This document shows, in pieces, positions 2,244 to 59,679 of a DNA stretch of 64,000 nucleotides. The translations under genes and the position numbers were made by a program. Under the pieces are notes generated by a model. The model searched no databases, had not been told where the DNA came from, and saw nothing but the letters and a program-made list of their open reading frames with translations. Origin of the DNA: Sipunculus nudus. Its lineage: Eukaryota > Annelida > Sipuncula > Golfingiida > Sipunculidae. The stretch covers positions 14,753,508 to 14,817,507 of the forward strand of contig CM049313.1 in assembly GCA_026874595.1 (NCBI GenBank). The letters run 5' to 3'. The stretch's first letter is position 1. Every line of letters starts with the position of its first letter.

Positions 2244-2399
2244 TTAAGGTGTGGCTGTTTGTGTGCCGACCGAAGCCTGTTTCTTCGCAAAGATGTTGCA
2301 CAATTTAAAGACGAGCTCAATTACTTCAATCAACGTAAGGATAGACATTCCTATCCATAGACCAAGCTGACCACCAATATCCCCAAGCAAGTTCTCCAG
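2244..2399 (-). CDS. Channel exon 14: pore, TM2 and C-terminus
   Basis: Encodes residues 666-716 and the TAA at 2244-2246. [16 protein letters not shown] carries the conserved GGQxGLWxGxS pore; G682-M683-S684 is the selectivity filter. The residue at the degenerin position is Gly, as in ASICs. TM2 continues to about residue 700. The cytosolic tail is short ([13 protein letters not shown]), without the PPxY motif used by NEDD4-type ligases in vertebrate ENaC. Acceptor cttttccag. Confidence 0.95.
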   Translation of the reverse strand: MENLLGDIGGQLGLWIGMSILTLIEVIELVFKLCNIFAKKQASVGTQTATP

Positions 2400-5300
2400 C
2401 TGGAAAAGAGACACAAAAAATTGTTAGGTAAGGAGAGAAATCCCTACCAATATACCAAACCATCTGTCATTGTCCTAGAGCAAAATTTAAAGGTACAAGA
2501 AAAAGGTTAAATAAAATGGTTGCAGTCTAATAAGACATCCCAACTCACAGACCAAGCTGATCACCATTGTCCCAAAACAAATTCTCCAACTGTAAAGATC
2601 TACCAATGTCATCTTTGAGTCATAATAGACATCCCTAATCATAGACAAAACTATCCGCCATTGTTCCCGTGCATATTTTGAAGGTACAAAAAAGGTTTAA
2701 AAAAAGGTCAATCAGTAGACATCCACACCCACCGACCAAGCTGTCCACCATGTCCCCAAGCAAGTTTTCTAGCTATTAGCAAAGAGGTCGTTCAATATGG
2801 TTAGACACCTCTAGACCACGCAAACAATCAATACCGATGTCTTAAACTAGCTAGCAAAACATTATATACCCCATCGACCCACACAAAATCATTCAATTAT
2901 GACAGATATCCGTATCCAATTACTTTGCTCCCCACTTTTCTCCCAAAGCAAGTTCTCCAAGTAAAAAATAAAAACACACAATTTCTGCAATCAAAATATG
3001 TATCCGCACCAAAGACCAAGCTGAACACCGAGGTCAAAGAGAAGTTCTAGCTACAAGTAAAATAATACAATCGTTTAGTAAAGTTGGCTTATCCACAGTG
3101 ACCAAGTAAAAGATAAAAACACACACAATTGCTGCAATCAAAATAAGTATCCGCACCAAAGACCAAGCTGAACACCGAGGTCAAAGAGAATTTCTAGCTA
3201 CAAGTAAAATAATACAATCGTTTAGTAAATATAGCTTATCCACAGTGACCACGTGTACCTGATGAAAGTTCTCCCGCTTCCAAAGATAACACATAACATC
3301 ATTTAGTGAGCTGCGTTTTCCCTACCTTTTCCAATTTTCCCAAAATAAAAACACCGATACATTCATTATATATTTAAAAAACACCTTACTTAACCATTTC
3401 TCTCTCCTATAAACATTTAAGTACATACGGCAGAGTGAAAAAAACACGGGGACGTATAACATATTTACAACATCCGTTACTTGATTGAATCGATGGAAAG
3501 GAAATAATGCATAGCCATTTATACCCTGACCCAAGGTTGCAGGCCATTCATAAGGGGGCATCCATTCTGGTTGCGACTTGGGAACAGAAACTGTTTTGAA
3601 GATACCAGGGTTATCAAGGATAAAACAGTATCTGAACACACTCACATGGCAAAATTACTGCCATCATTCATGGATGATTTTTGTGCACTACACAACAATA
3701 CGGGGATTAAAAAATAAACCATAAATCTTATGTAGTTTTTTATCATCCTCATTCAACAGACATATCGGCTTCCCCCACATACTGGTGCTAATCTTGTATT
3801 CAACCTTGTTAACAATTCCATAACCCCAAACATAAATATTTGAAAGTTACACGTAATAAACGCCACTCACGGAATATCATATTTAGAAGAAAAAAAACGC
3901 ACCTCATAAGCTGGAACTTCCGTCAGCTTGTGATATATTAGCTCTTTGAAATACACCTCGATCTTCAGAAAGTTATCCCTGGAAGACAAACCAACAGCAT
4001 TCAACACGCATTTGCAAACGTATTAACCTTCAGACTTGTGAGGTTAACCCTCACGGCATACATGAGGACAGCACGGTTTAATTCCAATAAATATAGACAG
4101 CCGGGGTTGCTATGCCATTCCTGTTACATTAATGGTGCCCAGACCGGTAAGTTTTATTATTTGAGCTACAGTTGTCAATAGGAGAATATCTTGAATGGGA
4201 AACGATATGCCCCTTACTTATTCACTCAGAAACTTGTCTCGAACGGACAAGGCGTGAACAATATTCTAATTATATTAAATATTTTAGTACAGGAGGACAA
4301 CCTGTAGTGCATTCGAACCAGAAACCAGCCAGATGAGCGAGACATAAAATTCGACCTTGTCATGCGTCCGGAACTATCGCTATCCATTAATTCTCACTCG
4401 GGGGACCATAGGGAGTTCTATTTGGAGAGTTTTTAAAGCATGACTGAGAAGCCGAGCTATATTTATTGAAAACTGAATGGAAACCAAATTTTCCTGATTT
4501 GTCTCACTGTTTACAGTCATCATATTACTCAAAAAATGGAAGCCAGTTTATAATGTTTAATTTCAAATGACTGTTATTATAGGTGCGAAAATGCTACAAT
4601 GACTCAGCACTAAGGTAAGTAAACTTGCTTGCGCATGTGACAACTTGCGAAAAGGTCTTTCATGTTGCACATTAAATTTGCACTTTCACGTTTTATCGGA
4701 ATGAATGTCTCAATCAGAGATTAATAGTTAGATTTCATCCGGGTTATTTTTGTAATAATAGGAACAACAACTGCAATACTGATTTCGGCATGACTAAGAA
4801 CATGACTAATAATAGGTTCATGTCTTCAACTCAAATACCACTGGAACATGGCATTCATGGCTCGGCAGCAGTCTTCACCTCTTTGAATAGCAAAAAATGG
4901 TTCAAATAAAGGTCCAAGTCTAAAGGAAACTAGTAAATTAACCAAGACAGCCACAAGTTAGGTTGAGCTTGAAAAGTGAAAAAAATAAGAGAACCACTCT
5001 GAAAGAATGCTTAAAGGGTATATATGACACACTTTGGTATCAAGAGCCTACCTCATGGTGTGATTTTTAAGAGCTTCTCGAAGCTTTGTGTCTCGACGGG
5101 AAAATTGTTCCTTGAGCAATTCCTGAAATGCAAGAAGAAATATTATGTTACTGGTTTCTGAGTTAAAAGAACTCACTGATGTAAAAATAGATGCAATGAA
5201 GATGCAGAAATAAGTACATAATAAATTAATAATGTATGTTTCAGAAAACAAGAAAAATATCAAGCAAATTAAGGTCTTTTCGTTTCGTTAATTGGATATA

Positions 5301-8300
5301 ATGATTATTATGATATTGTGGCCAATAGTTTGTCTATGACTTTTAACTCGGAGGATCTTATGTCTGACACTAATATCTCAAAACTTTTTGTTTTACTTTT
5401 GGAAAATAACCGCTAGAGGGCGCTGCACTTGAACATTACAACATATGTTTATTTGGCTATTTCTCCAAAAGCTCAAATTGTTCCTCTATACTTTCTTCAT
5501 AGGATGGTCTAGTCAACTTTCATATTGGATGTGTCAGTGCGTCAGTATGTCTGTCTGTTTTTCAGTTGTCCTCAATTTGACCTGTTTGCTGGTTCTTGTG
5601 TCTTAAATATAACATTCTACGGGCAACAGTTTTGCAGGAATCCTTTAAAAACTGGTAAATCTTATGTCTTACACTAATATCTCAAAACCGGTTTTTCATT
5701 TTCGGAAAATAGCCGCTAGGGGGCTCTGCACTCGAAACACTAAATGATACCGGTTTTTGACCATATTTTCAAAACTATAAACCTTCGCTACATAAACTAT
5801 AGCTCAATATATTCCTCTATTCTTTCCCAAGTTGATGGTTTAGTCAATTGTCATCTCAGATATCTCAGTATGTCAGTATGTCCGTCATTTTTTCAGTTTT
5901 CAAAGTCGCCTTCCTGCTTGTTCTTTCGTCTGATATATGGCTTTCCACAGGCCAGATCTTATAAATAGTATCTCTGAAAGTTACAGTGTTGATACAATAC
6001 CTAGAGTTCTAGAATTTCTTATGTCTTTTAGACTAAATAGTCCAAAGTAAAAAGGTCAAGGTCATTAAAAACTACAAAATTTTTTTTTTTTCTTATCTTC
6101 ATTAACATTTTTCGATCCCGCATGAACTGTAGCTCATTTTACGCGCCATTCCATGGAGTTTACTTTGATACGTAGCTGTCTAAATCTGCTGTTACCATGG
6201 TTATGTTTTTTTGGAAAAATTCATGATATCCCAAAATATGGGGTCTCATTTATCAAACTTTGTCACTTTAAAAGCTAGAGAGGCTTTCAGGCACCATTGG
6301 ATCAGTTTTACTGGACTTTATACCAAATCACGGGAAATCTCGCACCGTTTCACGTCAAACGGGATATTACAAGATTTCACTTTTTTCGCTCTACAGTCTC
6401 AAATCTCAGCCAGTCGCTCTGAAAGTTATACAGTTGAAAGAAAAACGAAACTCCATCACGTCTTTAGTGGAGATAGGCCAACGGTCAAGGGTAAGGTCAT
6501 CGAAAAAATATTTTGCTCATTGCGTCGTGTAAAATTGCCCTATCTACACAAAACATGTCCTTATTAGTCCTTGCAATCCCCATTATAACTGTCTGTCCTA
6601 TTTCAATTTTCGGCAAGCTCTCGACCTATGATCGTCTTGTCTTTAATGTTAGACTGCGGTTTCCGAAAGAGTGTGCAATGAAAGTTCGATTGATACTGAA
6701 GTTTTGCTACCATTCTGAGTTACCTGACCACACAGGTTAAATATAAAAAAATATTTACCTCGAATTTTTCTCCAGGCCAGTCAGAAGCGGATATCGTCGT
6801 GGAGTAGAAATTTTCTCTGAAACAAATCAAACTTCGATACCAAGCCTCAAGAAATAATGTAGGCACAAATACAACCTGATGGAATATATTTAACGGCGTT
6901 ACTGAAATAAAAAAAAATAACTAGTAAAGATCTTTTAGCATTATGTCAGTACAAAGAACACTTAAAACAAAAATCAATCATTTATTAGCCAGTCGGCTTG
7001 TCCTCTTGTTCAAGCCTTTTAAGATAATATGTCAGTTATGGATAAATGTAGGCAAAGTTCGACGAACAATTGAAAGAAAAACCTTTTTAGGTACATGTGG
7101 AAAACACAAATTTAGAGTGACAGAAATTGTATTAAGATCAAAGCACTAAAAATAAAATATTCTTCAGTGTTTGAGCTTGCATGATCATGCTTAATTAACT
7201 TCTACTAATACACAGAATATTAAACATGTTCTTACCTGCATCTTAGGGGACAGTGACACTTCACCTGACCGATTTTTAACCATCGATCCACCTTCTTGAT
7301 ACATTCAAGTTCTAAAATATTAAAAGTGATTTATAAAGGCAAAACTGTTGCCCTTTTGTGGGCACATTCTCTGGAAGCTGTATGAAACAAAAACCGTTCT
7401 TATAAGACAACGTCTCTATAAAGTTCACCAATTAGTCAGCCGAACGCATTCACATTTCTCAAAATGACCTGACTGATAAGTATTATAACCATGTGTCCTC
7501 AGTCCCACGAGTGGCTTATTACACAATGTGTATATAAACAATCTGTATGTTCTAAATTATCAACTGCAACGGAGGGATATGACGGACCGAATTTCAAAGA
7601 TGTTTCTTACGAATTATTCCTAAAATGAATGGGTCAAACAATGGCATCTCCTGTTCAATATATTATAATTGGGATAATTATTATATAATATAATGAGATA
7701 TGGTATGCGATATATATCTTGGTTACCCGTATCAAACGCATTCAGTGAATATATTAAAACACATACGGTTAGTGTCATTGCACACTGGGGTTTTGCCGAC
7801 GATTGGTAGAGAAGCATCTCCACATTTGCATTCATTCATTTTATGCCTCTGGGAACACGAACGCAGACATGCCTGTTTTGATTTGAAAAAAAATGCAAAC
7901 TATACGGTCCGTTATATTGGAAACCAAAACCTATAGTTTGACCTGGAGGAATCAATTGCTTCCTGTCAAACATTCAAGCATTGATCCTTTATCTTACTGA
8001 ATGTCAAAAGGAGATGAATAGAAAATATTCAGAAGGAGATAAATATATACACATGACAGGCTAACCACCTTTTTTAGATCATTAATAGCCCCTTAAAGTC
8101 ATCCTTGGATAAGGTATAATACGGCTGTATGATTATTTGTGATACGATTGGTGGCATAAGGCATCCCTCTTATACTGAATGTAATTTCCACAAAGTATTC
8201 TGGACCACCCGACCCAAACTATCATGATCCTTATCAAACGTGGGTGTGAGCCACATAAGCCCAGGAAATATACGATTCCACAGATAAATAGGTCATGGGC

Positions 8301-11300
8301 TACAAACTCGATGGTGTGCATGACAGTCAGCTTTTCACGCCAGAAAGAAGGCGGTCCGTGATAAGAATAGATGGCTCTTAACCTCGGATGGGAGTAATAA
8401 ATGGCTAGGCGACCAAGACCAATGGCAAAAAATTAATCTAAATTTGGTGATCAAGATTATCTAGAACATTTAAATTTTAATGGGGTTTTCAATTTTACAT
8501 TAACGTTAACAAACACTTATCAAAATTAGAGCATTGATTTTTTCATTAAAATTGCCAACAGACCAACCGTTAAGTACGTAACATGCCGACTGCGATAAAA
8601 ACATGATATCTCCTAGGGGAGGTAAGCTTAATTCGTGATTTTACAGAGGATGAAAAAAATTCCCGGAGGGCCTTAGTTACGCATTGCTTATTTCTAAAAA
8701 AACTTTTCTTTGGTGTTATCGAACACTAGCTATCCGCGGAGAATCAAAAATATTCATGAATAAATCGTTATTATCCATCCCAGCAGTAGGTAAAACGAGC
8801 AGGAAGATATTGTAGGTTCGTTAAATTCAATTTGTTCAGTGAATCTAAACATTGAAAACTACAGGATAAGTCAAAATATCAACATTATAACTGATTTTTG
8901 TTTGACAGGGCGTAATTCCAACTGGACATTCCTTGGCGTGTTCCGAACATCTATACCGTAACGGTAACCTCTTGAGAAGCTGAACAGTTCGAATCATTCA
9001 GGATATTAAAAAAACTTAAACTCTTATAATGTCTAATGATATCAAATAAATGTGATTGAAAGTGTTCATATCAATCACGTCATCATAAAGATGTGTGCCA
9101 AATGGTCAATTTGAAGTACAATTAGTATTATTTCGGCAAAACTATTTTTGCTTTTTTATAAGTTATAAACATGTTCTTATATTCAATGGCAACTTTAACG
9201 GGAACTCAGTTGCTCCATTGAATACTGCTGCTTATATTTCTATTTCATTTTATGTCAGAAGACCTATCAATGTATTATCCTGTATGAACGTTTCACTCGA
9301 ATATCATGTGCTACAATAATTGAAAAAAAATGGTAGGAATGATGGACATATGTTTTCCTGTATCCCATCTTCAAGGGTTTTGTTAGTATTAAACGATGAA
9401 CTGTGCACCAGACATTACCTTCTGACACACGTACTGTGTAAAAACATGGTAGGAATGATGGAAATGTTTTTCTAGTATCGAACCTTCAAGGATTTTGTTT
9501 GTTTATAAACAATGAATCGTGCACTAGACATTGCCTACTCACACACGCACTGTGTATTGGCATATAAAAAGTGTTACCAAATTACCCGTAAATTGACATA
9601 AAATTCATGACGGTGACTTTCTCCATAAATTATACTATTTAGTGCATACCTTAATATATAAACTGCTGGTACATGTTGGGGAATTCAGTGGCAAATGTGA
9701 TTCTCATGACACACTGGACGTAGTAATGTGTATTTATCTGTATAATTCTTTGAACCCGGGCCCATCTATCCAACTGCATTTCCATTATAGCATACTGATC
9801 TGAGTCACCTCTGAGTTTGATTAGAATTCTCATTCAGTGTTTTAGTGTTTGAATTCTGTATCTAATGTCCTAGGTCTACACGAGCCCTTCACAAGACTTA
9901 AACGGAAAGAACGTGGCAAGATTTATGCCATTCGTATTCTCTTTCCGAGATAAAAAAAAGAGAATACGTCATTTCATTATTATTTGGCAGTTATACTTGG
10001 ATCTACAACTAATATTTTCCGGCTATGTATTTCAGTATGAAAATGAATCAAAATGTTCAGAAGAAGGGACCCTACCGATACAGAGTAGTGCTTGTTGTAC
10101 AGAATTTCCTGGCCAGTTCCATCTGAGCAGTTGCTTTTGTAAGGGTAACGCAGCCGATCTACACTGGACTAGAAAATAAACATGTTTCATCAATCATTTT
10201 CAGTTGTTGATAAGTAGTTATGTTGATAAACAGTGCTTGTTGTACAAAACTTTATGGCCAGTTCAACCAGAGCAGTTGCTGTTGTAAGGGTAATGGAGCC
10301 GATGTACACGGGACTGGAATATAAACATGTTTCATTAATCATTTTCAGTTGGTGATAAGTAGTTATGTTGATAGGCAGTGCTTGTTGTACAGACCATCCT
10401 GGCCAATTCCATCAGAGCCTTTGCTGTTGTAAGGGTAATGCAGCCGGTCTACACGGGACTGGAAAACAAACATGTTTCATTTATCATTCTAAGTTGGTGA
10501 TAAGTAGTTGTGTTGATAAGCAGTGCTAGTTGTACAGAACTTCCTAGCCAGTTCCATCTGAGCATTTGCTGTTGTAAGGGTAACGGGACTAGAAAATAAA
10601 CAGGTTTCTTTGATCATTTTCAGTTGTTAATCAGTAGTAACGTTGATAAGCAGTAATTATAGCTCTAATGGCTACTGTTTGTCATATAATTTGGCTAATC
10701 CTTCAGAAATCTCTATTTAACCCATTTTCATTTTCTCTTTAACGAAATGAAGAAACTTATGACTATCCAGCCAAAAGGCGTAAAATGTTGGTATTCTTCC
10801 AAGAAAGCATTCTGTAAGTACATTTTCCTTTTATTCATATTGATCATGTATAAACCATTAAGTCAGAACTATCACAACTTAAACTAAGTACAAATTGTAC
10901 TTTAAACTATAAATTTCTTACCATTCTCATGCTAATTGTGGTCTTCTGCCCTGGGCTGATGTCAATCCCTTCCTCCTCCGGAAATGGCTGAACGTCCTGG
11001 CTGTGTATGAGGACTCTAACCCCCGCCGCGGGCGACAAAGCCGCAACGTATTCTTGTTGCTCGATATACAGGGTGACCATGAAGCCTATAGAAATATATA
11101 TATACATCAAAAAGATTTAGAAATTTGATATTGGGTAACATTTAACTGATTAAGGGTCGGACCTTTATATTAGCTTAAATATATTCCTGGTATCAGGCTT
11201 CGGTCCAAATACATTTTTTCTTTTGAAAATGTCACACTTGCTTATGGATCTGAATACAGAATAACTCCATTTGAATTTGCATTTTTGAGCATAAGTCAAC

Positions 11301-13518
11301 TAGAGAGGACTATGTTGTATTTGTTTATTCTTATTGCATTTGCATTTGGTAATAATACTAAGGAGTAATTTAATTTTCGTTTTATTCAAGTGTGTTTGTA
11401 TTATTTGCATTTAACTACGCCAAGTCGCATCTGAGCCAAGCCTTTCGGTTACTCCTGTATCTTTTACTAAGCAGTTATTTTGAAATTATTGCCTAAACTG
11501 CTGTGTCTTAATTTTTCACAAACCATTAAAATAAAGCTATTACATTTGACTTTTGTAAATTGACATTTAAGAGAAATTTCATATTATCGGTTTATTGGAG
11601 ATAAAATGTTCTCCTGACTGTCCGTTATAAATGTATTTTAATTTTCCTCTACATAAGCTATATGGTAAGTTGTGGGTATTTTTACTGACAAGGACAATTA
11701 CGCACTAGTTGATTTCTATTTCGGAATGAGCGTTAACGTTATTCATGATTTAAATAATAGGTAATAAATAGGTGTATACATTTACATTTACCAAGCAGGA
11801 AGATAAAGCAGTGATACACGCGAACCAATACAGTCCGTTGTTCCACAATATCAATTCCATGACGAAGTAAAATGTTTAAAATAAAAATGAATGGTTTCAG
11901 ATCACTTTTTATGTTTATATCGTTTTATCTTGCAAATATTATATTTAGAGTATGTAACAGTTTTTGAGAAGTATTTTATATATCTTGACAAGATTTACAT
12001 ACTCTTTACAGATGTCTTTGTAACACAAAGATCGCCCAAGCGGGACTGATAATCATTACAAGGCAAATGCAAGGAAACTGTTTTTTGTTTACCTTTAATC
12101 ATGCTTGATACTTAAAGTCGACCCTGTAATATAAGCTCATTGCTCATATCCACAGAGTTTTTGGTTCATTGTCATGGTAAGAAGTTAAACTAGGAACCTA
12201 CCGTACAGTGGGCCTGGTTTTGAACTCTTTAGTATGGTCTGGTTTACTCCAGCATTGAATGTGTAACAGTTGCCATATCTGTGATGGTTTAAACCTTTGA
12301 AGTTCCTGTACAGTCAGAAGAATAATGTAAGTAGTAAGCTTTGGTGTTTCCAGTAACAAATACTTTCATATATGATAACTTATGAATTAGACCGTTTACA
12401 TTTTGTTTTCGGTCTCTTCACTGTCATATCAATTGACAAACTGTCCTTTTCCTTGTGGCCTAGTAAAATATTATCTCCGTAAATTTAAATTATGGCCTTA
12501 CATCCTTTTTATTCTCAATGCCTATTTTACATATAATTTAACATAAACGTATATGACCAATATTATCTACTGGTTATTTGTGCCCAAAATATATAAAGGT
12601 AGCGTGCCACAACCCTTTAATTTATAGCTTAATATTTAAAGAATTCTGTTTACCCATTAATGTGGTATTTTATATTAATAAACAAAACATGCAATAAATG
12701 AGTAACAGACACGGATAACAAAGATACTTACAGAGGAGAACACGTTTCGCCATTGTAGGTGCACTCCTGAATAAAGTCGATGATCTGATGGCCATAATTC
12801 CGACGTGTTTTTAAATCCATCCGGGCAACAATGCGAGACAGGTTCTCGGAGCTTGCCACAAGAGCGTTGTCGGAAACGCTAGTGAACCAGTGTTTGCCGG
12901 TCAGGTTTACATATGGATCGTAATAGTCATCAGCTGGACTCTGGAAAAAAAACAGATTATTTATGGCTTTCACAGCTTTTTTATACTGGATCAAGCCCGT
13001 ATCCAGGTTGTCCGGCAGCTCCCGCCCCTACTTTGTACACACACTGGTAATTACTCTTATCCAGACACAAAATATATGCTAGTCAATATATATAATGATA
13101 GTAAATTTTAAACATGATTATGCTCAGCTAAAACTTCATTATTCCATACTGTCATTTGCAACAAATTATCCCCTGGACACCATTTCTGAAATCTTCTCAC
13201 ATAATTTGAGTTGATAAATCATGGATTCCATTCAAATGATTACTTAAAAAATACTTCAAAAGTACTTGAGAACCAGTACGAGTACTTCAGACTATTTTAC
13301 AAAAGTACTCGAGTTGTAGAACCGAGTAGTCTAAATGTACTCATGAGCACTTGAAAGAGTTTAGTTTCCAATGCCATTGAGTTATACAGGAACACAGTTT
13401 GGTTTCGGAAAACTCTTTGTTTCTGAACATTCATGACAACATGTACAATAAAAGTATCATAATGCAATTGATCAAAGTATATTAATTATTTAGGAAACAT
13501 TTGCGGTCCCTCATCCTT

Positions 13519-21928: not shown

Positions 21929-24900
21929 CAAAGCATGCATTTGTTGTTCAGCGCCTTAGAATTTGTTAACACAATAGGATCACCTTTATACCAATTTATG
22001 AATGTAAAGTAAATGTAAAATACCGTACGATGGAAATTTAACAGGTAATTTTTTAAAGTAGCCATTTTCTAAATTTATGCATATCATATGATTCCAATCT
22101 TCAACAGATCGAGCGTATTTTGAAAAGTATATATTTTAAAATTTAATAGTTTAAACACAACAAAATAAGAGGTGAGACCTTACACCTTCACACTAAGGGT
22201 ATGAAATGGCGCAGTGGCACACTAGGCAGACCTTATAAAATATAGGAAAAGGTCTTAATATCTGTCTACAGTTTAAGGGAGTTATTGTCATTTTTGTTGG
22301 AGGAATAGTTGAAAAAAATCTATGCACGGTTCGTAAGATCGTTCTACAAGTTATTTTACCGACAATCGACACATTTGTAGCCCGTTTACTAGCTGAGTTT
22401 TCTGACATTTATCTGTGCAATTCATAATCAACTGATTTTCAGTAGAGCCATTGTCCGGTTATGTTACACTTTCATTTTAAGATCATGTAGATTGAGTAAT
22501 ACTGAAGAACTGCCCTGTGGAAGAGATGCACGACCATGGAATATAACCTTCCCATTTAGCCTGCAAGGCGCTCACCTTGAGCATGCACCAACCGTGAAAA
22601 ATCTCGCTGAGATAATTTTCAGCACGATCTTCTGGCTTTGAGTCGTAGCTGTGTTCTACCACCCAGAAGACAATGCAAGTTAACATCAACATATTAATAT
22701 CATAAATAATTTAAAAGTCAACTTACATAATTATTTTCGGCAGCGGTAGCTCCCGGGGATAATGGGGCCGTAATCGCTGGACGAGTGTCGGTTGTTTCCT
22801 CTTGAGTTGTTTCCCGTGTTGTAGTACTCACTTCAAGCGTATAATTTGTTGGATGGTACGTCGAACCCCTGGTTGTATCATTTTCTGGGGAACTGGATGA
22901 TTCATTTTTCGGGGCATTTGCGGCAGTGGTTGCAGCATTTCTGGTGGCGTTTTCAGTGGAATTTGTCGACATCTTCATAGAAAAAAAATTACTTTTTACA
23001 AGAGTGTCGCTATAATAAAAGTAAATTTTTTATATAACGCAATTCATTCGAATGAATTGAGTAATAGCATACATAACAATTTGATAACAGAAATCAAAAG
23101 CCAGTTAATTTCATTATATTAATACCGTAAGTTATTTAAAGGTCGACTTACATAATTATTTTCGACAGCGGTAGTTCCCGGGGCTGATGGGGCAGTAATC
23201 GCTTGAGGAGTGTCGGTTTTTTCCTCTACAGTTGTTTCCCTTGTTGCAGTACTCACTTCAGGCCCATAATTTGTTGGATGGTAGGCCGGTCCATTGGTTG
23301 TAGCTTCATCGTCGGTTATTGGCGACGTCTTCATAGTAAATAAATTAGCTGTCTACAAACGTGCCATGATTTTAAAAAAACTTCATGATATTTTTATATA
23401 TCAGAATGACTTCTAATAATTTATATATAAATGCGTACATTACCATAAGATAAAAGGGCTTCTGCCTACACACCAAAATACTTGCCATACGTCGAGTATT
23501 CATGTTTATCTTCCCGTGTACTTTCAAAACAGTATGTTTCTTTACCTGTTTACAGTACCTGTGGGCAGCCAATGACTTAAAGGGGCTTATTTCCATATCT
23601 GACGCCTATTAACTAAAGAGAATCCCTTGAACCTTTCAGAAAATAGCCCAAGAAACACCGATCCCACGCAGGCTGTTAGTATGTTTATATCAATGTGTTT
23701 GTAACATTTGGCAGTCTAGCAACACACATTCAACAAGGACATCTGGCGGCAAAGTATTGTGAAGGGCGTTCTGTCGGCAAATAGTGAATTTTTAGTTTTC
23801 GCACATATGCAGCTGGCCATTACAGTTTTTCATCTGTTTGTCAACAACTGGCGCATGAAAACGTATTTAGTGAATAGTATAGTATTTGCGTAGTTGAAAA
23901 AGATCATACATCCGTCACAGAGGCAATATAATTTTTTTTTTCTTAATAGGAATAACCTACATCTCATCGGAAATCATATAAAATCTATGGTAAATGTAGG
24001 TAAGTAGCTGACTTTAATAATACAACCCACAATTATTTAAAAGATGTGAGTATTGTGCTTTATGGGCAGTAATACGAGATTTTTAGAATAGCGAATGAGC
24101 GAGGGAGTGAATCCACCTACCTAGGTCTAGAAACTTTTCAAAAATTTAGGCTGTCATGTTACAAAATGTAATATTTATAAAAGCATCATGATGCAAAATC
24201 CGGGTTTTTTTAACACTTTGCGCTTATTTTTTTCTATATCCAAGAGGGTAAGGTCGAAACAGGGGGAAGCGCCCACTCCCCCCAATCCGCAAGACATCGC
24301 AACATGAATAGGCGTGTTTTACAACCGCTTTTGCCTAGTTACGCACAGATAAATTGTAAATTAGATTTGCAGCCTTGATGTATATTTACCAAATGGGTGA
24401 CTGAAAGGAATAGCTTAGAAATTTATATATCAAGTGGCCTATTAATACAGTTTTAAATAATGAAGTTTATATTTGATATTATGTTTACGTATTTAATTGA
24501 CAAAACCTAATCTCTAGATATACACAGAGCGGACCCAAACGGACCGGCCTACTCAGTACCGATTTGAAATATGATAAAAAATAAAAATGGCTAGGTTCCC
24601 TAAAGACTAAGTGCCGCAAATTCGGATTCAAGTCTGTCATGTCCGATCTTGTCTCGCCCGCTCTGCGTGTGCCCTGCTTGATTAAATTTAGGTAACAATA
24701 ATGGATAGTGCGAAACATTGAGATGACAGATTAAAACATACACCATGTTCCAATATATCATCAGTGTTGAAATAGTTGGCATTTTTAACTGTTTATTGGT
24801 GGTATAGGTGTTAAAATGTCAATCAGTATGTAATAATAATTAGAAAAAAATGCTTCATCCATTGTTAATAAGGGGGTCTGAGACAGGTAGGATGGAATGG

Positions 24901-27900
24901 AGAAAAGATTTTATTTTTGTTTAAACGTTTGAATTTACAGTGCTCTAATGAAGATTATAATCGTAATAAAAATATGAAAAAGAAACGTAGGAAAGATTGG
25001 GAGTCCAGATTAAAAATAAGCTCTGCAAAGTTAGCTCCTTTTAGTCTCAAGTGATCGACTGTAAACAGGGATCATGTGACTGATCACATGATACTAACCC
25101 AACCTACATGGGGAATGTGTTTGTTTTAAAAATATCCTTTTTAAATGTTGTTACAAAAAAAATAAGCAAAATAATATGTATCTTCCAAATGTTAGCAAGT
25201 TTAATATACACAGCTGCGTAAACATTTACTAATAAAAGGACTTACTGTTGTCGTGCCATTTTGTTCTGGAGCAGCTCTTTTTTTCCGGATGTGAACTTCC
25301 GGAATTCCATCATCTTCTTTATCATCAACACCAGCCCCTCCATGATACAATGTATCATAGTAACTTTCTTCATCCTCAACAAAGTTACCTGAACCGACAG
25401 CAATCTCCTCATATGTTTCTTCAAATGAATTCCAGAATACTTCACGCTTTCTCCGCCTGGCCTTCGGTGCAGTCCGGGTACTGGACAAATCGTCAGCGCC
25501 CGAGTTGTCTGCAGAGCCGGAGTATAACTGAGATTTCAATGTTTTTTCGAAGTTAATAATGGCCGCGTCGAGATCTTCATCCCTGGCTGCTTTGCTACGG
25601 CGGAACTGGTTGACATTACAGATGGTCACAGCTGGAAAGTCCAGTTCCTCTACATGCACCTGTAATAGAAAATGATATAATGGTATTCGGAAAAAAAATA
25701 CCTGAGTATTCAGTCAAGGGGCAAGAATGCTATATCGGGTATTTATACTGAGAATATGACGTTATGACCACAGGTTTAAAGAGACTTTCGTGTATAGAAG
25801 TTATGAGTCTGTTGTCATTTTATAACCAGCTGCTCATTGTAAGCTGTCTTTCCAATTATAGTTAGATTCCCCTACATGTATATAATATACATTTCATTAC
25901 ATTTCATGACACACTACATACAAAATTTTAGATTATTAGAGAAATCCAGAGGAAATAAATTATAATAATGATATGTAAATAAATATCAGGAAATGGCTTT
26001 TTTGGGCGTTCAATCTAAAATGGTAATGGATAATCTGGAATTGGTTCCAAATTATCCTCGGGTAATCTGAAAGTGCTACAAAGCATCCTGAAGCTTAAGA
26101 TAATAATAAAGATTTATCTGCATCCATACAATTACCTTGCTAGTTCACAAAGATTTTATTTGCAGGGAGTGTGCGGAAAAGGAGAGAGAGAGCTAGTGAG
26201 AAAGAGGTGAATAAGGCTGGGTCTTTAGGCAGTTGCGCCTTTCAATTTCACCGATCCGTTCTAAGATTATTTTTTTCTACTTTTGATCATGGCAAATCCT
26301 TCCACAAAACTTCATAAAAAATTACTGGGAACTTCGAAATATTTGGTTCGGAAAAGCACCCCCCCTCCCCCCTCCCCCCCCCCCCCCCACACACATAAAC
26401 AAACCCGAATGATCACTTAACCTCTTGCCACCTTCAATGGTAATTTGGAAATTACGATTGAACGAAGGAATCACGTGACTGATAACAATTATAATTAATT
26501 AAAATGTAATTATGATTGATTTTACAACTGTATGAATTTTTTACACTGATCTCTTTTTTTTTTTTTGGTCAAACCAATGTTTAGACGTCATAAATATTAG
26601 TGCATTCGAAATGTATCGATCACATTACAATTACTATGAGAGATTAAATTTATCAGTAACCTTTAGACCTTATAAAAAAGACAATAGGTCATAACAATTG
26701 AAATAACTATTGAAATTTTTATCTGAGATGACTTTCAGTGATGCTGAACTGTAGCGATCAACTTTTGTCCGCCGTCCTCCCTCGGCCGTCCGGTTGATCA
26801 TCAGCACGGGACAAATCATTACCGCTCGAACTTCTAAATGAACATCCAGAGAGGTCAATGAAAATCTCCTTGGAAACCTGATAATTAGGTCTCTTTGACC
26901 TATATCCTCGTGCCCTAAGATCAATTAACATTTGATACAAAACCTCCAGTATCTCGATAATTTATGGAAAAATATGTCATGATTTTTGTTTAACTAATTG
27001 ATAGCTGCATAAGACTGACGGCGGCGAGATATTAGGAAATATTTTACATGGTTTGACATGTTCATAGATACGGGTGTCTATTCAGATTGGGATCAAGACC
27101 TTTTTAGGAGAATGCCATTGAACTTGAAAATATCTTGTTGAAAAACAAACGAAAGAATTATTGAAGAAAATGACACGTGAGTCTGGTATCACCATATTTT
27201 AAACTTTTCTCGTTCCATGCCTCATTGCCACTTGACAGTAATGTGCGCATTGTAGGTCAAATCTAAAGGTCAGATTTCTTTTATTTATTTACATGCATTG
27301 ATATGGATTATAGAATGAAGTCTATTCAAATTTGGATCACGACTTTATCATGAGAAAAACAAACAAAAGCATTTATTTCTTTAGATGGATATATTTTTAA
27401 AATAAATCAATAAGATATATGCTAGATGGTAAGTTTTGCCAGAGTTCGTGATTCACTGATCTTGACCTTTGTGTTCAATGTCAAATCTGGGGGAAACTTA
27501 TGTTTTTTGTAAACTCCAATACTTTTTTTACCCTACAGATTTCATACATGTTTAAAGACTGGTAACCGCGAGCATTGTGTTCAAGGTAAAATCTGTGAAT
27601 ATAAAGGATTTTTCTTAACACCATCACTTTTTCAATAACTGCAATAAAATCATTTTTGTGATTTTCTCCCGACAAGGCGGAGACATCCACTCATTAGAAT
27701 AGATATTTCTAGTTTTTGATTGATTTTGGTAGGATAACACTAAACCTACGTAATCAGTTCCCATGGGGCTAAGTGGCAGCGGTGGAAAAGGCCTGATAAG
27801 ACCACCGTTTAATTGTTGGTGCCATGGTGGAGGTATGCGGTCTACTGAGAGCCATTTTGGTTCATCGATGCGGTTAATCTAACAATAAGTAGTTGTAAGA

Positions 27901-35270: not shown

Positions 35271-35335
<65 letters not shown>

Positions 35336-45537: not shown

Positions 45538-45602
<65 letters not shown>

Positions 45603-51600: not shown

Positions 51601-51835
51601 AATATTATTTTAATTAATTAAAAAATAATCTTACCCGGATATCCAAAATAGCTGGCTTTTCAAGGAACCTTCGAAACAGACGCGACATCTGCCAGGAAAG
51701 TATGCCCAACGCTCCTAGAAGACATGCACTCCACAGGAATCTTTGCCAGAATCCTTTTGATGCTGACAGACGACCAACTCCGTGAATGCTTGTGTATTCC
51801 GTGAACTCTTTTATTTTGTCCTTTATTTTCCCCAT
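2244..51835 (-). CDS. DEG/ENaC-family sodium channel subunit, 14 coding exons
   Basis: This is the gene as a whole; the exons are listed separately. The joined exons (201, 414, 177, 246, 209, 104, 164, 93, 106, 76, 58, 71, 76 and 156 nt) give 2151 nt, or 716 residues plus TAA, with every splice phase compatible. Seen in order: His-Gly at 18-19, TM1 around 31-50, FPAVTICN at 75-82, two basic cleavage-type sites at 135-139 and 192-195, a Thr/Ser-rich stretch at 206-346, the finger/thumb cysteines at about 406-596, and pore/TM2 at 666-700 with G-M-S at 682-684. The family forms trimeric, usually amiloride-sensitive Na+ channels of the plasma membrane, gated constitutively or by protons, peptides or force. 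The pore helix ([12 protein letters not shown]) is closest to ASIC, whereas the cleavage sites recall ENaC, so the subfamily and stimulus cannot be named from this sequence. Promoter and UTRs are not defined. An upstream non-coding exon is possible. Confidence 0.95.
2430..3260 (-). repeat. Array of decayed partial copies of the pore exon
   Basis: In intron 13, beside exon 14, there are about six degenerate copies of the first ~55 nt of exon 14: near 2441-2495, 2531-2592, 2631-2690, 2712-2772, 2999-3060 and 3146-3207. On the minus strand the 2531 copy still reads [14 protein letters not shown] then a stop, behind a ttacag acceptor. The two last copies (147 bp apart, nearly identical) read [16 protein letters not shown]. 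All stop matching just after the GxS codons. Confidence 0.8.
3903..3978 (-). CDS. Channel exon 13: palm strand before TM2
   Basis: Encodes residues 640-665. [19 protein letters not shown] then TEVPAYE matches the family block N...V.VYF..L.Y.....P.Y that links palm to TM2. Acceptor cttccag|G, donor GAG|GTGCGT, phase 0 out. Confidence 0.94.
5052..5122 (-). CDS. Channel exon 12
   Basis: Encodes residues 617-640, a basic/acidic helix-like stretch ([20 protein letters not shown]) in the place of the thumb-to-palm connection, where family members vary. Acceptor atttcag|GAA, donor ATGAG|GTAGGC, phase 2 out, which joins exon 13 to restore Arg. No matching plus-strand exon is seen before the window ends. 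Confidence 0.88.
5350..5955. repeat. Direct duplication, ~303-bp unit, in intron 11
   Basis: Two diverged copies start with cttatgtctgacactaatat (5357) and cttatgtcttacactaatat (5660). They share ggaaaataaccgctagaggg, gcgctgcactt and the block gtcagtatgtctgtc...tttttcag. Unknown dispersed repeat. Confidence 0.75.
6759..6816 (-). CDS. Channel exon 11
   Basis: Encodes residues 597-616. [19 protein letters not shown] matches the family's C....Y....S...WP pattern after the last thumb cysteines. Acceptor tttcag|A, donor GAG|GTAAAT. The 58 nt length equals that of the plus-strand paralogue. Confidence 0.93.
7236..7311 (-). CDS. Channel exon 10: CHCPLRC block
   Basis: Encodes residues 572-597 with split codons at both ends. 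[10 protein letters not shown]...KCHCPLRC is the conserved C.C...C region of the thumb. Acceptor ttttag, donor GTAAG. Same length (76 nt) as the plus-strand copy at 63280-63355. Confidence 0.94.
7767..7872 (-). CDS. Channel exon 9: Cys-rich thumb segment
   Basis: Encodes residues 537-571 plus one base. The block [18 protein letters not shown] matches the family's C...C........C.C motif, and PVCND supplies a further cysteine. The acceptor is aaaacag|GCA and the donor ACC|GTATGT. The plus-strand paralogue is at 62707-62812, same length. Confidence 0.94.
9330..9560. repeat. Direct duplication, ~117-bp unit, in intron 8
   Basis: Two copies start with tggtaggaatgatgga at about 9330 and 9447. They share cttcaaggg/attttgtt and cacacacgtactgtgta. 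Confidence 0.75.
10076..10168 (-). CDS. Channel exon 8 (intact copy)
   Basis: Encodes residues 506-536 (31 aa), phase 0-0, acceptor ttttctag|TCC, donor TCG|GTAGGG. The protein ([19 protein letters not shown]... to YSVS) corresponds to the family's L..PY...C... segment before the CLRSC block. It is the only one of four tandem copies with a donor site and an open frame. Confidence 0.92.
10180..10655 (-). repeat. Tandem array with three dead copies of exon 8
   Basis: Units of about 144, 143 and 133 bp lie in intron 7. Each contains a copy of the first ~60-80 nt of exon 8, preceded by a working-looking acceptor (exon-like parts end at 10313, 10458 and 10588, read on the minus strand). The first has TGA at 10263-10265. 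The second stays open but runs into TAA in sequence that replaced the donor. The third has lost the VDRL codons and has two TAG codons. All lack the real exon's 3' end and donor. Confidence 0.88.
10922..11085 (-). CDS. Channel exon 7: palm/beta-ball segment
   Basis: Encodes residues 452-505. The block [16 protein letters not shown] then [23 protein letters not shown] matches the family pattern L.....EQ.EY......AG..V.IH.Q...PF....G....PG. The acceptor is tttctatag and the donor GTAAGA. A plus-strand paralogue with the same length (164 nt) and about 18 differences by eye is at 58920-59083. Confidence 0.95.
12202..12305 (-). CDS. Channel exon 6: RYGNCYTFN block
   Basis: Encodes residues 416-451 (partial codons at both ends; acceptor ctgtacag|G, donor TACG|GTAGGT). 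It carries [11 protein letters not shown], the conserved R/YGNCYTFN signature of the DEG/ENaC ectodomain, and ends in SSKPGPLYG, which leads into exon 7. Sequon NQT is present. Confidence 0.94.
12732..12940 (-). CDS. Channel exon 5: finger-domain segment
   Basis: Encodes residues 347-415 and two bases of codon 416. The acceptor is a good one (tttttttccag|AGT). The segment [19 protein letters not shown] followed by ETCSP matches the family block GHQ..D.....C.FNG..CSP, which marks the first ectodomain cysteines. N-glycosylation sequons NLT and NLS are present. It ends in phase 2 at CCTCT|GTAAGT. Confidence 0.93.
13235..13350. repeat. AAGTACT/AGTACTC-rich element in intron 4
   Basis: Motifs aagtactt, gagtactt and aagtactcgag occur at least six times in both orientations in 115 bp, as in the subterminal regions of some hAT-like MITEs. 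No ends or target-site duplication were recognised. Confidence 0.4.
13519..13568. repeat. (CT)n microsatellite
   Basis: About 50 bp of CT with one interruption, in intron 4. Confidence 0.97.
14455..14625. repeat. Dispersed repeat, copy in intron 4
   Basis: agaaagcgatttccgctcta, aactttgccgctacacg and tatttctcccagttt align with 28085-28215 (aaaaagcgttattccgctca, tattttgccgatacatg). Family unknown. Confidence 0.55.
15979..17230 (+). mobile_element. Dead non-LTR retrotransposon (reverse transcriptase part)
   Basis: Reads [20 protein letters not shown], then [11 protein letters not shown] and a stop, then [15 protein letters not shown] (the catalytic FADD box, with Asp changed to Asn), then [20 protein letters not shown]. 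Further on come [27 protein letters not shown] and [13 protein letters not shown]. This is the order of a CR1/Jockey-like ORF2 from the middle of the polymerase domain to the C-terminus. Stops, frameshifts and a SINE insertion show it is inactive. It sits in channel intron 4, opposite in strand to the gene. Confidence 0.85.
16563..16680 (-). mobile_element. tRNA-derived SINE nested in the LINE
   Basis: On the minus strand there is a box A (TAGCGAAGCGGTTGG) followed at tRNA spacing by a box B (GGGTTCGAATCAAGG), i.e. an RNA polymerase III internal promoter. The cloverleaf does not close well and the copy splits the LINE polymerase sequence, so a SINE is preferred to a working tRNA gene. Confidence 0.6.
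17406..17489. repeat. (ATT)n-(AT)n microsatellite
   Basis: ATT units run to about 17444, then pure AT to 17488, at the 3' side of the LINE remnant. This may be the descendant of its tail. Confidence 0.95.
18270..18610. repeat. Dispersed repeat, copy in intron 4
   Basis: Shares tttggaaataata.cct, gatgacgtc, ctgccgaccc and aagcaggta in the same order with 53300-53720. Family unknown. Confidence 0.55.
19855..20190. repeat. CGACTAC/TCGTA-rich sequence of unknown origin
   Basis: Short related words (acgactac, tgcgactt, acttgtcgta, aggtcgcaag) recur in a 330 bp stretch directly before the SINE at 20.2 kb. It is richer in CpG than its surroundings. No family recognised. Confidence 0.35.
20229..20540 (+). 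mobile_element. tRNA-derived SINE
   Basis: The head has a box A-like TATGGGTAGAGCATAGG and box B-like GAGTTCGAATCTCAGCC about 35 nt apart, followed by a ~230 bp body with cgggttttcctcggag, a motif common in conserved SINE central domains. The 3' end is unclear. It lies in channel intron 4. Confidence 0.6.
21682..21848. repeat. Long foldback (inverted repeat), MITE-like
   Basis: Arms of about 70-75 nt (21682-21753 and 21773-21848) are imperfect reverse complements, including tttcacgggatgcga against tcgcatcccgtgaaa, with a ~20 nt loop. AT microsatellite follows on the right. It could be a small foldback transposon; no target-site duplication could be fixed because of the flanking TA repeats. 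Confidence 0.75.
21845..21925. repeat. (AT)n microsatellite
   Basis: AT repeat with two interruptions, adjoining the foldback element. Confidence 0.95.
22490..22665 (-). mobile_element. Degraded SINE next to exon 4, with exon-like borders
   Basis: On the minus strand ggtagaacacag, atctcagcgaga, tttttcacggttggtgc and ggtgagcgc align in order with the SINE at 55.3 kb. By chance it contains an AG (22656-22657) and a GTGAGC donor (22570-22575) around 80 nt that are open in two frames. Including these 80 nt would break the channel reading frame, whereas exon 4 to exon 5 joins cleanly. Confidence 0.55.
22727..22972 (-). CDS. Channel exon 4: Thr-rich extracellular segment, copy B
   Basis: Encodes residues 265-346 (82 aa), phase 0-0. 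It duplicates exon 3 but has an extra Asn/Ser/Ala-rich N-terminal part with several N-x-S/T sequons (NST, NAT, NES, NDT, NYT). Acceptor context (tctatgaag) and donor (TTAT|GTAAGT) are the same as in exon 3. The frame is supported by the matching amino acids of the two copies. Intron 3 between them is only 179 bp. It joins exon 5 directly in phase 0. Confidence 0.85.
23152..23328 (-). CDS. Channel exon 3: Thr-rich extracellular segment, copy A
   Basis: Encodes residues 206-264 (59 aa), phase 0-0, acceptor ...tatgaag, donor GTAAGT. The composition is Thr, Ser, Pro, Ala and Glu, like a mucin-type stalk, with no cysteines. It is a paralogous duplicate of exon 4: both share YHPTNY, EVST, TRETT, AITAP and a terminal ENNY. 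Because the exon is phase 0-0 and a multiple of three, it could be skipped without breaking the frame. Confidence 0.85.
25246..25659 (-). CDS. Channel exon 2: start of ectodomain, two furin-type sites
   Basis: Encodes residues 68-205, phase 0 at both ends (acceptor ...ctattacag, donor GTAAGT). It starts [15 protein letters not shown], the family signature after TM1. Basic sites RRRKR (residues 135-139) and RKKR (192-195) fit the furin consensus R-x-K/R-R. They enclose 56 residues with about 16 Asp/Glu. In vertebrate alpha and gamma ENaC, two protease cuts in the finger domain release an inhibitory peptide and raise open probability; whether this happens here is inference. The segment before the first site is also charged and looks flexible. 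Confidence 0.93.
26358..26389. repeat. C-rich tract (G-rich in the channel pre-mRNA)
   Basis: Runs of 7, 6 and 15 C separated by T. On the transcribed-sense minus strand this reads as three long G runs, which could fold as a quadruplex in intron 1 RNA. Confidence 0.8.
28085..28215. repeat. Dispersed repeat, copy in intron 1
   Basis: Partner of the repeat at 14455-14625; diverged and not otherwise recognised. Confidence 0.55.
28500..28960 (+). mobile_element. LINE endonuclease remnants
   Basis: GAVYPNPGP near 28538-28565 resembles the ..NPGP leader common before the endonuclease domain of CR1-like elements. Further on, [20 protein letters not shown] then GIIYRPTS matches the endonuclease block LE.LW.E......Y..G..YRP. 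The region between is full of stops. Confidence 0.65.
29175..30070 (+). mobile_element. LINE ORF2 C-terminus, duplicon copy 1
   Basis: Reads [33 protein letters not shown], then after a 40-bp tandem repeat [18 protein letters not shown] and HYSLRN, the post-polymerase region of CR1-like elements. Frameshifts and stops follow. The duplicated 10.3 kb unit starts inside this element. Confidence 0.75.
29258..29372 (+). repeat. 40-bp tandem repeat, 3 copies, at the duplicon start
   Basis: Three units of aatgaacttggctgggtgac context (one partial, then 29293-29332 and 29333-29372) lie inside the LINE coding sequence. Only one unit is present at the corresponding place in copy 2 (39636-39675). Confidence 0.85.
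32028..32099. repeat. (TC)n microsatellite, duplicon copy 1
   Basis: TC run with a few interruptions and a TTC end; counterpart at 42258-42303. Confidence 0.96.
32635..32725. repeat. (TA)n and ATACACACA repeat, duplicon copy 1
   Basis: TA run followed by three atatacacac-type units; counterpart at 42858-42925. Confidence 0.93.
32997..33278 (-). mobile_element. LINE ORF2 C-terminal zinc-knuckle fragment, copy 1
   Basis: About 93 open codons read [20 protein letters not shown], then [18 protein letters not shown]. The C-x2-C ... H-x4-C arrangement after F..R..H.IL is the C-terminal domain of L1/Tx1-like non-LTR elements. The rest of that element is missing. Confidence 0.75.
35268..35332. repeat. 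(TA)n microsatellite, duplicon copy 1
   Basis: About 60 bp of nearly pure TA. In copy 2 (45505-45600) the same locus has become TA blocks separated by CATA. Confidence 0.95.
35745..35905. repeat. ~63-bp tandem repeat, about 2.5 units, copy 1
   Basis: Units share the order ccagctagacctcatcat, aaacagacacacctcgacaa and ggtggaagcactggca. It lies between an unassigned region and the ~150 bp array. Confidence 0.75.
36694..36708. promoter_or_regulatory. IR3 palindrome AGGTCA-cca-TGACCT
   Basis: Perfect inverted repeat of the nuclear-receptor half-site with a 3-nt spacer, the consensus form of an estrogen-response-type element. It is part of a tandem repeat monomer, so binding is only a possibility. 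Confidence 0.45.
37317..37331. promoter_or_regulatory. IR3 palindrome AGGTCA-cag-TGACCT
   Basis: Second perfect IR3 in duplicon copy 1. A further imperfect one, AGGTCC-ata-TGACCT, is near 37005-37019. Confidence 0.45.
37766..38107 (+). mobile_element. LINE C-terminal tail, copy 1
   Basis: An open frame reads [20 protein letters not shown], then [31 protein letters not shown] and NWEAHATNR. This matches the tail of Jockey-like elements: R.LGI.W.D.V.N...L, ..RR..LGH, GRP.LR.KD..K.DLK, WE..A.DR. Only the tail is present. Confidence 0.75.
38630..39360 (-). mobile_element. Non-LTR reverse transcriptase fragment, copy 1
   Basis: The minus strand reads [40 protein letters not shown], then [29 protein letters not shown]. 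This is the front of a CR1-like polymerase domain (...P..WK...I.PI.K.....D..NYRP...). Frames are broken between the blocks. A ~270 bp deletion removes the part with [13 protein letters not shown] that copy 2 retains. Confidence 0.8.
39640..40370 (+). mobile_element. LINE ORF2 C-terminus, duplicon copy 2
   Basis: [39 protein letters not shown] and [15 protein letters not shown] form an open stretch to 39879, then the frame is broken. It is the same segment as at 29.3 kb, with one instead of three 40-bp units. Confidence 0.75.
42258..42303. repeat. (TC)n microsatellite, duplicon copy 2
   Basis: Shorter than in copy 1. Confidence 0.96.
43181..43462 (-). mobile_element. LINE ORF2 C-terminal zinc-knuckle fragment, copy 2
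   Basis: Same as the fragment at 33.0 kb with a few substitutions (for example [20 protein letters not shown]). The frame is open in both duplicon copies. Confidence 0.75.
45505..45600. repeat. (TA)n/CATA microsatellite, duplicon copy 2
   Basis: TA blocks interrupted by C about every 10-20 bp; differs from the pure TA at the same locus of copy 1. Confidence 0.95.
46005..46165. repeat. ~63-bp tandem repeat, about 2.5 units, copy 2
   Basis: Same as at 35.75-35.9 kb, in the second duplicon copy. Confidence 0.75.
46951..46965. promoter_or_regulatory. IR3 palindrome AGGTCA-cca-TGACCT, copy 2
   Basis: Counterpart of the site at 36694 in duplicon copy 2, unchanged. Confidence 0.45.
47564..47578. 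promoter_or_regulatory. IR3 palindrome AGGTCA-caa-TGACCT, copy 2
   Basis: Counterpart of the site at 37317; only the spacer differs, so both half-sites stayed intact after duplication. Confidence 0.45.
48000..48345 (+). mobile_element. LINE C-terminal tail, copy 2
   Basis: Counterpart of the fragment at 37.8 kb; reads [16 protein letters not shown] and [10 protein letters not shown] few substitutions break or alter the upstream part of the frame. Confidence 0.7.
49000..49865 (-). mobile_element. Non-LTR reverse transcriptase fragment, copy 2
   Basis: Same as at 38.6-39.4 kb but longer. It includes [20 protein letters not shown] and, in a shifted frame, [13 protein letters not shown], the conserved PQGS/T.LGP.LF box of reverse transcriptase. 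The catalytic FADD region is not present. Confidence 0.8.
50116..51480 (-). other. 5' part of channel intron 1
   Basis: AT-rich sequence between the duplicon and the exon 1 donor copies. It holds only the G/C hairpin; no coding or RNA feature was recognised. Confidence 0.5.
51114..51153. repeat. G15 ... C10 inverted run
   Basis: A run of 15 G, a short spacer (cagtggacatgccct) and a run of 10 C make a GC hairpin with GGGCA/TGCCC-type pairing at its tip. It lies about 480 bp into intron 1. Confidence 0.75.
51485..51660 (-). repeat. Tandem copies of the exon 1 3' end and splice donor
   Basis: The last ~20 nt of exon 1 plus its donor (GGATATCCGG|GTAAG) occur again 75 and 69 bp apart in intron 1. 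The real donor is at 51634. The copy with its junction at 51490/51491 keeps a GTAAGT donor, a better consensus than the real GTAAGA. The middle copy (near 51565) has lost GT (now AT). Confidence 0.8.
51635..51835 (-). CDS. Channel exon 1: N-terminus and TM1
   Basis: Encodes residues 1-67. The chosen ATG (51833-51835) is the first in frame after an upstream stop codon, and it leaves a short basic cytosolic tail ([11 protein letters not shown]), as usual in this family. H18-G19 is the conserved His-Gly gating motif before TM1. The hydrophobic helix spans about W30-M50 and is followed by the basic stretch SRLFRR. The exon ends in phase 0 at ...ILDIR before a GTAAGA donor. Two tandem copies of this exon end lie just downstream in the intron. 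Confidence 0.93.
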
Positions 51836-58919: not shown

Positions 58920-59083
58920 GTTTCACAGTCACTCTGTATATCGAGCAACAAGAATACGTGGCGGCTTTGTCCCCCGCGGCGGGGGTTAGGGTCCTCATAC
59001 ACAGCCAGGACGTTCAGCCATTTCCGGAGGAAGAAGGGATTGACGTCAGCCCTGGACAGAAGACAAGCATAAGCTTTAAAATG
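58920..59083 (+). CDS. Paralogue exon 7
   Basis: Reads [16 protein letters not shown] ... GIDVSPGQKTSISFKM, against [10 protein letters not shown] ... [16 protein letters not shown] in the minus-strand gene. Five residues differ over 54 codons while about 18 of 164 bases differ, so many changes are silent. Acceptor tttctatag, donor ATG|GTAAGA. Confidence 0.85.
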
Positions 59084-59586
59084 GTAAGAGAATTTTTTGG
59101 TACAACTCGTACAAATTCCAAATAGCGAGAGAAGACTAGCCTGTTGACTAAGTCAACACAACATACGATCATTATGTGCAATGTTTCAAGAAAATGTGCA
59201 TTATTTTCCGTCGTCATATCTTATCTGTGTTAAGTTGGGAGTGTAACCTTTCTTTAGATATCATACATGAAATATATGCTGTATTGCACCAAAGTGGTGT
59301 TAACTGTTAGATCCTGAGGGCATTTGTGACTTTATGGTTCTTTTAAAATAATTAATATAAAAATATACTTACTGAATGCTGTATGTCGAAAGATGGAACC
59401 AACATTTTACACCTTTTGGCTGGATGGTCATAATTTCTTCGTTTCTTTTTAGAGTGGTGGGGTAGCCAGAAGTTTTTTTGAAAAATTTGTCAAATTATGT
59501 GACAAAAATGTAGCCATTAGATCTTATTATCATTACAACTTACCAACAACTAAAAATGATCAATGAAGCTTATGTTCATTTTACAG

Positions 59587-59679
59587 TCCCGTGTAGATCG
59601 GCTTCGTTACCCTTACAGCAGTAACTGTACAGATTGAACTGGCCAGGAAATTATGTACAACAAGAAATACTCTGTTTCG
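59587..59679 (+). pseudogene. Paralogue exon 8 with in-frame TGA
   Basis: Reads [16 protein letters not shown], then TGA at 59635-59637 in place of the Gly codon GGA, then TGQEIMYNKKYSVS. Acceptor ttttacag, donor TCG|GTGGGT. The same codon is TGA in one of the dead exon 8 copies of the minus-strand gene (10263-10265). There is a single copy here, with no tandem array. Confidence 0.85.

Follow-up and report, generated by a model that had tools for sequence, protein, structure and literature searches.

Paired furin-type sites around an acidic tract in an ENaC/ASIC-branch channel subunit of Sipunculus nudus: a candidate for control by double cleavage

Does a sodium channel gene of the annelid Sipunculus nudus carry two furin-type sites that are held by selection, and, if so, would cutting at them control the channel? 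This question is raised by a stretch of 64,000 nucleotides (GCA_026874595.1, contig CM049313.1, positions 14,753,508 to 14,817,507), called the window here in its full length, in which an initial annotation had described two basic motifs enclosing an acidic tract in an ENaC-like protein. The reading that we favor, with a probability of about 0.5, is that of a selected proprotein-convertase site pair, cut to control channel activity, in an intact subunit of the ENaC/ASIC branch.

The gene and its paired sites

The window locus is an intact DEG/ENaC subunit gene. It lies on the minus strand, where 14 exons, from 51835 down to 2244, join in frame into a model of 716 residues. Motifs, splice signals and tblastn searches with other DEG/ENaC proteins encoded in this genome were used to trace these exons, and every internal exon of the spliced model is preceded by AG and followed by GT. 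The Pfam ASC profile matches model residues 11-694 at 1.2e-100, along positions 1-455 of its 455. Hallmarks of DEG/ENaC channels are an HG motif before the first transmembrane segment (TM1) and a GxS filter before the second (TM2); both are present in the model, together with the conserved strand. Transcription would probably proceed as modelled, judging from the sequence.

Exon 1 (51635..51835, on the minus strand like all exons that follow) encodes 67 residues, comprising the start codon, an N-terminus with the motif SIHGV, and TM1; it ends in phase 0 before GTAAGA, and the ASC match begins at its residue 11. Exon 2 (25246..25659, phase 0-0, with an AG acceptor and a GTAAGT donor) encodes the strand FPAVTICN, both furin-type sites and the acidic tract. 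Two Thr/Ser-rich cassettes come next, exon m1 (23152..23328, phase 0-0), in which an N-glycosylation sequon of its own is absent, and its sequon-bearing duplicate m2 (22727..22972, phase 0-0), which is 65% identical to m1 over 60 residues and has five sequons inside plus one spanning the exon end. Exon F (12732..12940) encodes the end of the finger region according to the spliced model and the comparison with gamma-ENaC. The spliced model then runs through exons at 12202..12305, 10922..11085, 10076..10168 and 7767..7872, the cysteine-rich exon J2 (7236..7311, with VKCHCPLRC), and exons at 6759..6816, at 5052..5122, which has counterparts in the paralogues D, E and F-prime described below, and at 3903..3978, where comparison with paralogues was also used.

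The C-terminus of the protein contains SVGTQT (2247-2276, minus strand), which is present in all four lineages of the gene distinguished below (the terminal exons of D, E and F-prime lie in L062, L064 and L065, respectively); we take its TQT to resemble motifs that bind the dynein light chain LC8. Intron 1 contains a repeat, at about 33000-40000 and 43200-50000, in which matching ORF pieces occur twice, about 10 kb apart, and some of these pieces are reverse-transcriptase-like by eye.

On the minus strand, within exon 2, the paired sites span 25276-25458: RRRKR opens this span at 25458 and RKKR closes it at 25276. Site 1, RRRKR followed by EV, occupies residues 135-139 (25444..25458), and site 2, RKKR followed by AA, residues 192-195 (25276..25287); the numbering first given for these furin-type sites matches the spliced model. 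Between them lies a tract of 52 residues (25288..25443), with 16 D/E and one K/R. The acidic count of about 16 in the initial annotation is thereby confirmed, but its length of 56 residues includes the second site. All three features are drawn from the spliced model and from paralogues, and RX[KR]R motifs occur in the 716-residue model at these two places only. When the 603-residue ectodomain was shuffled 20,000 times with its composition kept, 17.9% of the shuffles had one such motif or more, 1.4% had two or more, and 0.2% had two spaced 20-70 residues apart. A chance pair was considered and rejected; conservation among the paralogues, counted below, is a stronger argument against chance than the composition shuffle and was given more weight.

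Placement in the DEG/ENaC family

The best PDB match to the window protein is gamma-ENaC (217 bits), followed by the beta (197 bits), alpha (194 bits) and delta (191 bits) subunits. ASIC1, likewise a DEG/ENaC channel, scores lower (180 vs 217 bits for gamma-ENaC), FaNaC reaches 143 bits, and the RX[KR]R motif is absent from the 445-residue stretch of ASIC1 that was compared. The initial description is supported in so far as the protein is a DEG/ENaC subunit with gamma-ENaC as its best PDB match.

In a 23-row tree with alpha-, beta- and gamma-ENaC and two FaNaCs, built without ASIC, the window clade pairs with ENaC (100/99). In a 20-row tree that includes ASIC1, there a long branch, and in which delta-ENaC was not included, ENaC, ASIC1 and the window clade are grouped apart from FaNaC (100/99), with their inner order not fixed. 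Alpha-, beta- and gamma-ENaC form a clade of their own (99/99), and the window clade stands outside it. Among the constrained topologies, the window clade with ASIC1 was not rejected (p-AU 0.42), and the window clade with gamma-ENaC alone was (p-AU 5.6e-5). Membership of FaNaC was also rejected, the window clade joined to Aplysia FaNaC having a p-AU of 0.0008. Published trees, in the available part of PMC10507113, place ENaC and FaNaC in clade B, ASIC in clade A, and uncharacterised protostome channels beside ENaC; against this background, it comes as no surprise that a protostome should have a relative of ENaC.

Annelid and mollusc FaNaC/WaNaC channels have the DEG/ENaC fold in common with the window protein. 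Three FaNaC relatives (L001, L002 and L003) are present in the same genome, none of them with the site pair. One of these, L001, is 69% identical to Malacoceros FaNaC1 over 517 positions (864 bits), whereas, for the Aplysia FaNaC stretch used, the highest identity reached by any of the 23 own frames examined is 29%. According to the accessible text of PMC9234716, the annelid FaNaC/WaNaC genes, some of them from Malacoceros, group in one clade and those of molluscs and brachiopods in another; the match of one gene of that study to the FaNaC1 of the PDB is assumed by name. The initial label "mollusc-like" does not agree with these identities, which likewise disfavor a mollusc origin and point to an annelid as the probable source. 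The annelid haemoglobin-linker family PF16915 had no match in the genome, nor in any of the controls, and carries no weight for this question.

The alignment with gamma-ENaC stops at residue 91 of the window protein (110 of gamma) and restarts at residue 381 (235 of gamma). Since the furin site of gamma-ENaC is R138 (PMC8791634, in the part available), both window sites lie within the interval that holds it, and their assignment to the part of the ectodomain where vertebrate ENaC is cut is upheld. Vertebrate alpha- and gamma-ENaC and the window protein have in common a pair of polybasic sites located after the FPAVTICN strand and before the finger cysteine block (PMC8791634, same part). The two kinds of subunit also differ. 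Unlike the vertebrate ones, the window gene lies outside the alpha/beta/gamma clade, and its cleavage is predicted from sequence; a Thr/Ser-rich stretch follows site 2, and a PY motif ([LP]PxY) is absent anywhere in the 716-residue window model. The window tract is acidic, unconserved in sequence and 52 residues long (79 in F-prime), and the tracts of vertebrate alpha- and gamma-ENaC are shorter, with lengths of 26 and about 43 residues, and contain an inhibitory peptide. Presumably, the window tract shares no evident sequence with these vertebrate inhibitory peptides.

Conservation among exon-2 copies

Seven long copies of exon 2 (L021-L027) were found in the genome, all on the contig of the window (C8), with L022 being the window itself; three weaker rows (L028-L030) match the first part of exon 2 only and were excluded from the seven. 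Both sites are kept in six of the seven copies, window included (L021, L022, L023, L025, L026 and L027). Compared with the window, exon 2 is identical in L021 (copy A), 94% identical in L023 (copy C), 63% in L025 (D) and 61% in L026 (E), and that of L027 (F-prime) is 40% identical over the first 85 residues. Given the identity of L021 and the closeness of L023, we counted four lineages: window/A/C, D, E and F-prime. In the remaining copy, L024, site 1 has lost its P4 and site 2 its P1 residue, and no other exon is listed within about 29 kb of it in a search scoring best candidates only; since such a search might miss nearby exons, we call L024 decayed provisionally. Twelve open exons were found in each of D and E, that is, all except m1 and m2. 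In F-prime there were ten, with J2 unmatched and the G region left out, and a stretch of 85 residues with 41 Ser/Thr follows site 2 as part of its exon 2.

Of the 85 ungapped columns in the variable second half of exon 2, 13 are invariant among the window, D, E and F-prime, a count that leaves out L021 (identical), L023 and L024. Seven of the eight site columns are invariant in those four lineages (hypergeometric p 2.6e-6), and the eighth is R/K at P3. The result is the same when L023 is added; with both L023 and L024, invariance falls to 9 of 85 columns, and to 5 of the 8 at the sites (p 1.9e-4), and with the window, D and E alone the counts are 32 of 85 and 8 of 8 (p 2.2e-4). All of these p values are to be taken as a guide, since they come from a single MAFFT alignment in which the F-prime tract is poorly alignable. 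At the codon level, the eight site codons show synonymous changes only among the window, C, D and E, and site 1 of F-prime has the R/K difference at P3.

The tract itself gives dN/dS values of 0.95 (window-D), 1.01 (window-E) and 1.35 (D-E), and 0.18 was obtained for window-D over 330 codons of seven other exons. The latter value, together with the open, spliced frame, leads us to reject the possibility that the window gene is a pseudogene. Positions that are the same in the window, D and E number 19 of 52 in the tract, and the F-prime tract is barely alignable; acidic residues make up 16, 18 and 15 of 52 in the window, D and E, respectively, and 24 of 79 in F-prime. As the tract drifts almost neutrally and its acidity is kept, selection seems to hold the two cut sites and the charge, and not a peptide. 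Both sites thus appear to be held by selection in the paralogues. This conservation is one of paralogues on one contig of one genome, in which A, the window and C are recent tandem duplicates and do not count as independent evidence.

Furthermore, two RX[KR]R motifs were found in none of 23 other DEG/ENaC frames of the same genome (L001-L020 and L028-L030, out of 114 family matches), of which several are partial; both interval landmarks could be recognised in 11 of them. A single such motif, located beyond the interval, is present in L001 and in L015.

The surroundings of the gene also bear traces of duplication. Tandem copies A, window and C occupy C8:14660740-14911779 with spacings of about 95 kb and 106-109 kb, and the 100% identity of A and the window in exon 2 points either to a segmental duplication of recent date or to a duplicate created in assembly. 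Copy A has an interrupted m1 frame, and hence splicing may omit m1 or the protein may do without it. A partial inverted copy on the plus strand, at 58850-63800, includes exons H, I (with a stop inside), J and K, and its Z match is situated beyond the window, at C8:14827195; similar H and Z matches (14717231 and 14731871) adjoin copy A. Beside the good exons, at 10233-10585 and about 2400-3200, lie decayed tandem copies of exon I (three, built on a unit of 145 bp) and of exon Z, which encodes TM2. Decayed exon copies are seen in the paralogues as well (L065:3026-6380, L062:3976 and L064:6682), and F-prime has 11 further Z-like matches near its terminal exon. Local exon amplification is recurrent in separate lineages.

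Possible role and origin of the double cut

Cutting at the two sites is very likely, and control of gating is plausible. In the mechanism that we propose, a furin-like enzyme would cut after RRRKR-139 and RKKR-195 during transport, and this double cut would remove the acidic segment, which is probably disordered. The chains left on either side would remain associated in the folded ectodomain, and the Thr/Ser-rich stretch would lie at the newly formed N-terminus, with glycosylation if the m2 sequons are occupied. Before cutting, the acidic tract would keep the finger/thumb region at low activity through its charge and bulk, and double cutting would release this region. Eight P-domain matches, of the proprotein-convertase type, are present in the genome. 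By analogy with vertebrate ENaC, the tract would most likely be an inhibitor. Its near-neutral drift suggests an action by charge or bulk rather than by a peptide that docks, and is just as compatible with a simple spacer for maturation.

Constitutive removal of such a spacer is the main rival to gating control. The acidic tract would then be a pro-segment for folding or transport that is removed from every channel, with no regulation involved. Since each site satisfies the furin rule, with arginine at P1, cleavage could go almost to completion in the Golgi, and a tract that drifts almost neutrally while its charge alone is kept is what would be expected of a spacer or an intramolecular chaperone. 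However, the sites sit where cleavage of vertebrate ENaC affects gating (PMC8791634, in the part available), and furin cutting of alpha-ENaC is also intracellular yet alters activity. We regard a purely constitutive cut as somewhat unlikely.

A different concern is whether the basic clusters are cut at all. In the available text of PMC8791634, a polybasic site of human delta-ENaC in the same region stays uncleaved, and therefore the motif alone is no proof of a cut. This precedent, together with the basic-acidic-basic layout, would be compatible with uncut clusters that serve as electrostatic partners of the acidic tract or as binders of matrix polyanions. Such a role is improbable for the window pair, as P4, P2 and P1 are constant across the four lineages while charged residues elsewhere turn over, and the sole variable site position, P3, varies between R and K, as the furin rule permits.

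Cleavage at site 2 might instead free the Thr/Ser-rich N-terminus as an extracellular tether or a mucus-facing tail, which would suit both the two duplicated Thr/Ser-rich exons after this site in the window, the second with its five sequons, and the Ser/Thr-laden 85 residues (41 of them Ser/Thr) at the corresponding place in F-prime. Nevertheless, no match to m1/m2 was found for D and E in the partly covered exon 2-F interval, copy A has a broken m1 frame, and site 1 would in that case need no conservation, which makes such a function decidedly improbable. Finally, that the excised acidic peptide is a secreted signal, released by enzymes of the prohormone-processing kind, is barely credible for a sequence that is so little held (19 of 52 positions identical in the window, D and E, and barely alignable in F-prime).

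A selected site pair whose cutting controls the channel is accordingly the reading that we retain. We advance more tentatively its specific form, namely, that a protostome (annelid) channel lineage of the ENaC/ASIC branch evolved, without common origin with the vertebrate case, a regulatory tract that furin excises from the corresponding place in the fold and that inhibits by charge. If inhibition acts by charge and not through a specific peptide, the letters of the tract would drift neutrally while its acidity and the cut sites are held.

The available text of PMC8791634 presents the activation of ENaC through double cleavage as an innovation accompanying vertebrate life on land. Paired sites are reported there for the sequenced tetrapod alpha and gamma subunits and for the gamma subunits of ropefish and Australian lungfish; single tracts are reported for coelacanth and elephant shark, and none for two lampreys (its Table 1) and the West African lungfish. 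The same source prefers independent origins in alpha and gamma, and the word "invertebrate" is absent from its main text. Because the lampreys are without the pair (PMC8791634, as available), an independent origin of the window pair fits better than retention, and the different length and charge of the window and vertebrate tracts also make it the simpler account. The initial proposal that this control arose, or was kept, outside vertebrates is therefore best followed in its first half, since retention is disfavored by the lampreys. Loss of an ancestral pair, in lampreys among others, would be a less simple account than convergence, although it could still have taken place.

Protease sensitivity of an invertebrate DEG/ENaC channel is not in itself new. 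In C. elegans, plasmin potentiates MEC-4(d), an invertebrate DEG/ENaC in which the protease effect has been assigned to the finger domain (PMC8223032). That system differs from the one proposed here in relying on an added extracellular protease and predicted plasmin sites, and the accessible part of PMC8223032 describes no furin pair or excised tract. Paired furin sites in an invertebrate DEG/ENaC were found in none of the matches listed in full-text literature, a scope outside which most subscription papers lie; within those matches, the earlier statement that no described invertebrate channel has the double-site layout is borne out. Additionally, the word "furin" is absent from the main text, as available, of four papers on invertebrate DEG/ENaC channels (PMC10507113, PMC9822975, PMC11750451 and PMC11026163).

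If true, double cleavage in a protostome at the same place of the fold, with selection on the cut sites visible in paralogues, would be a repeatable solution and not a one-off. It would also provide a natural comparison for the excised tract, between a defined inhibitory peptide on the one hand and a charged wedge only on the other. Twin-site control of sodium channels may have evolved more than once.
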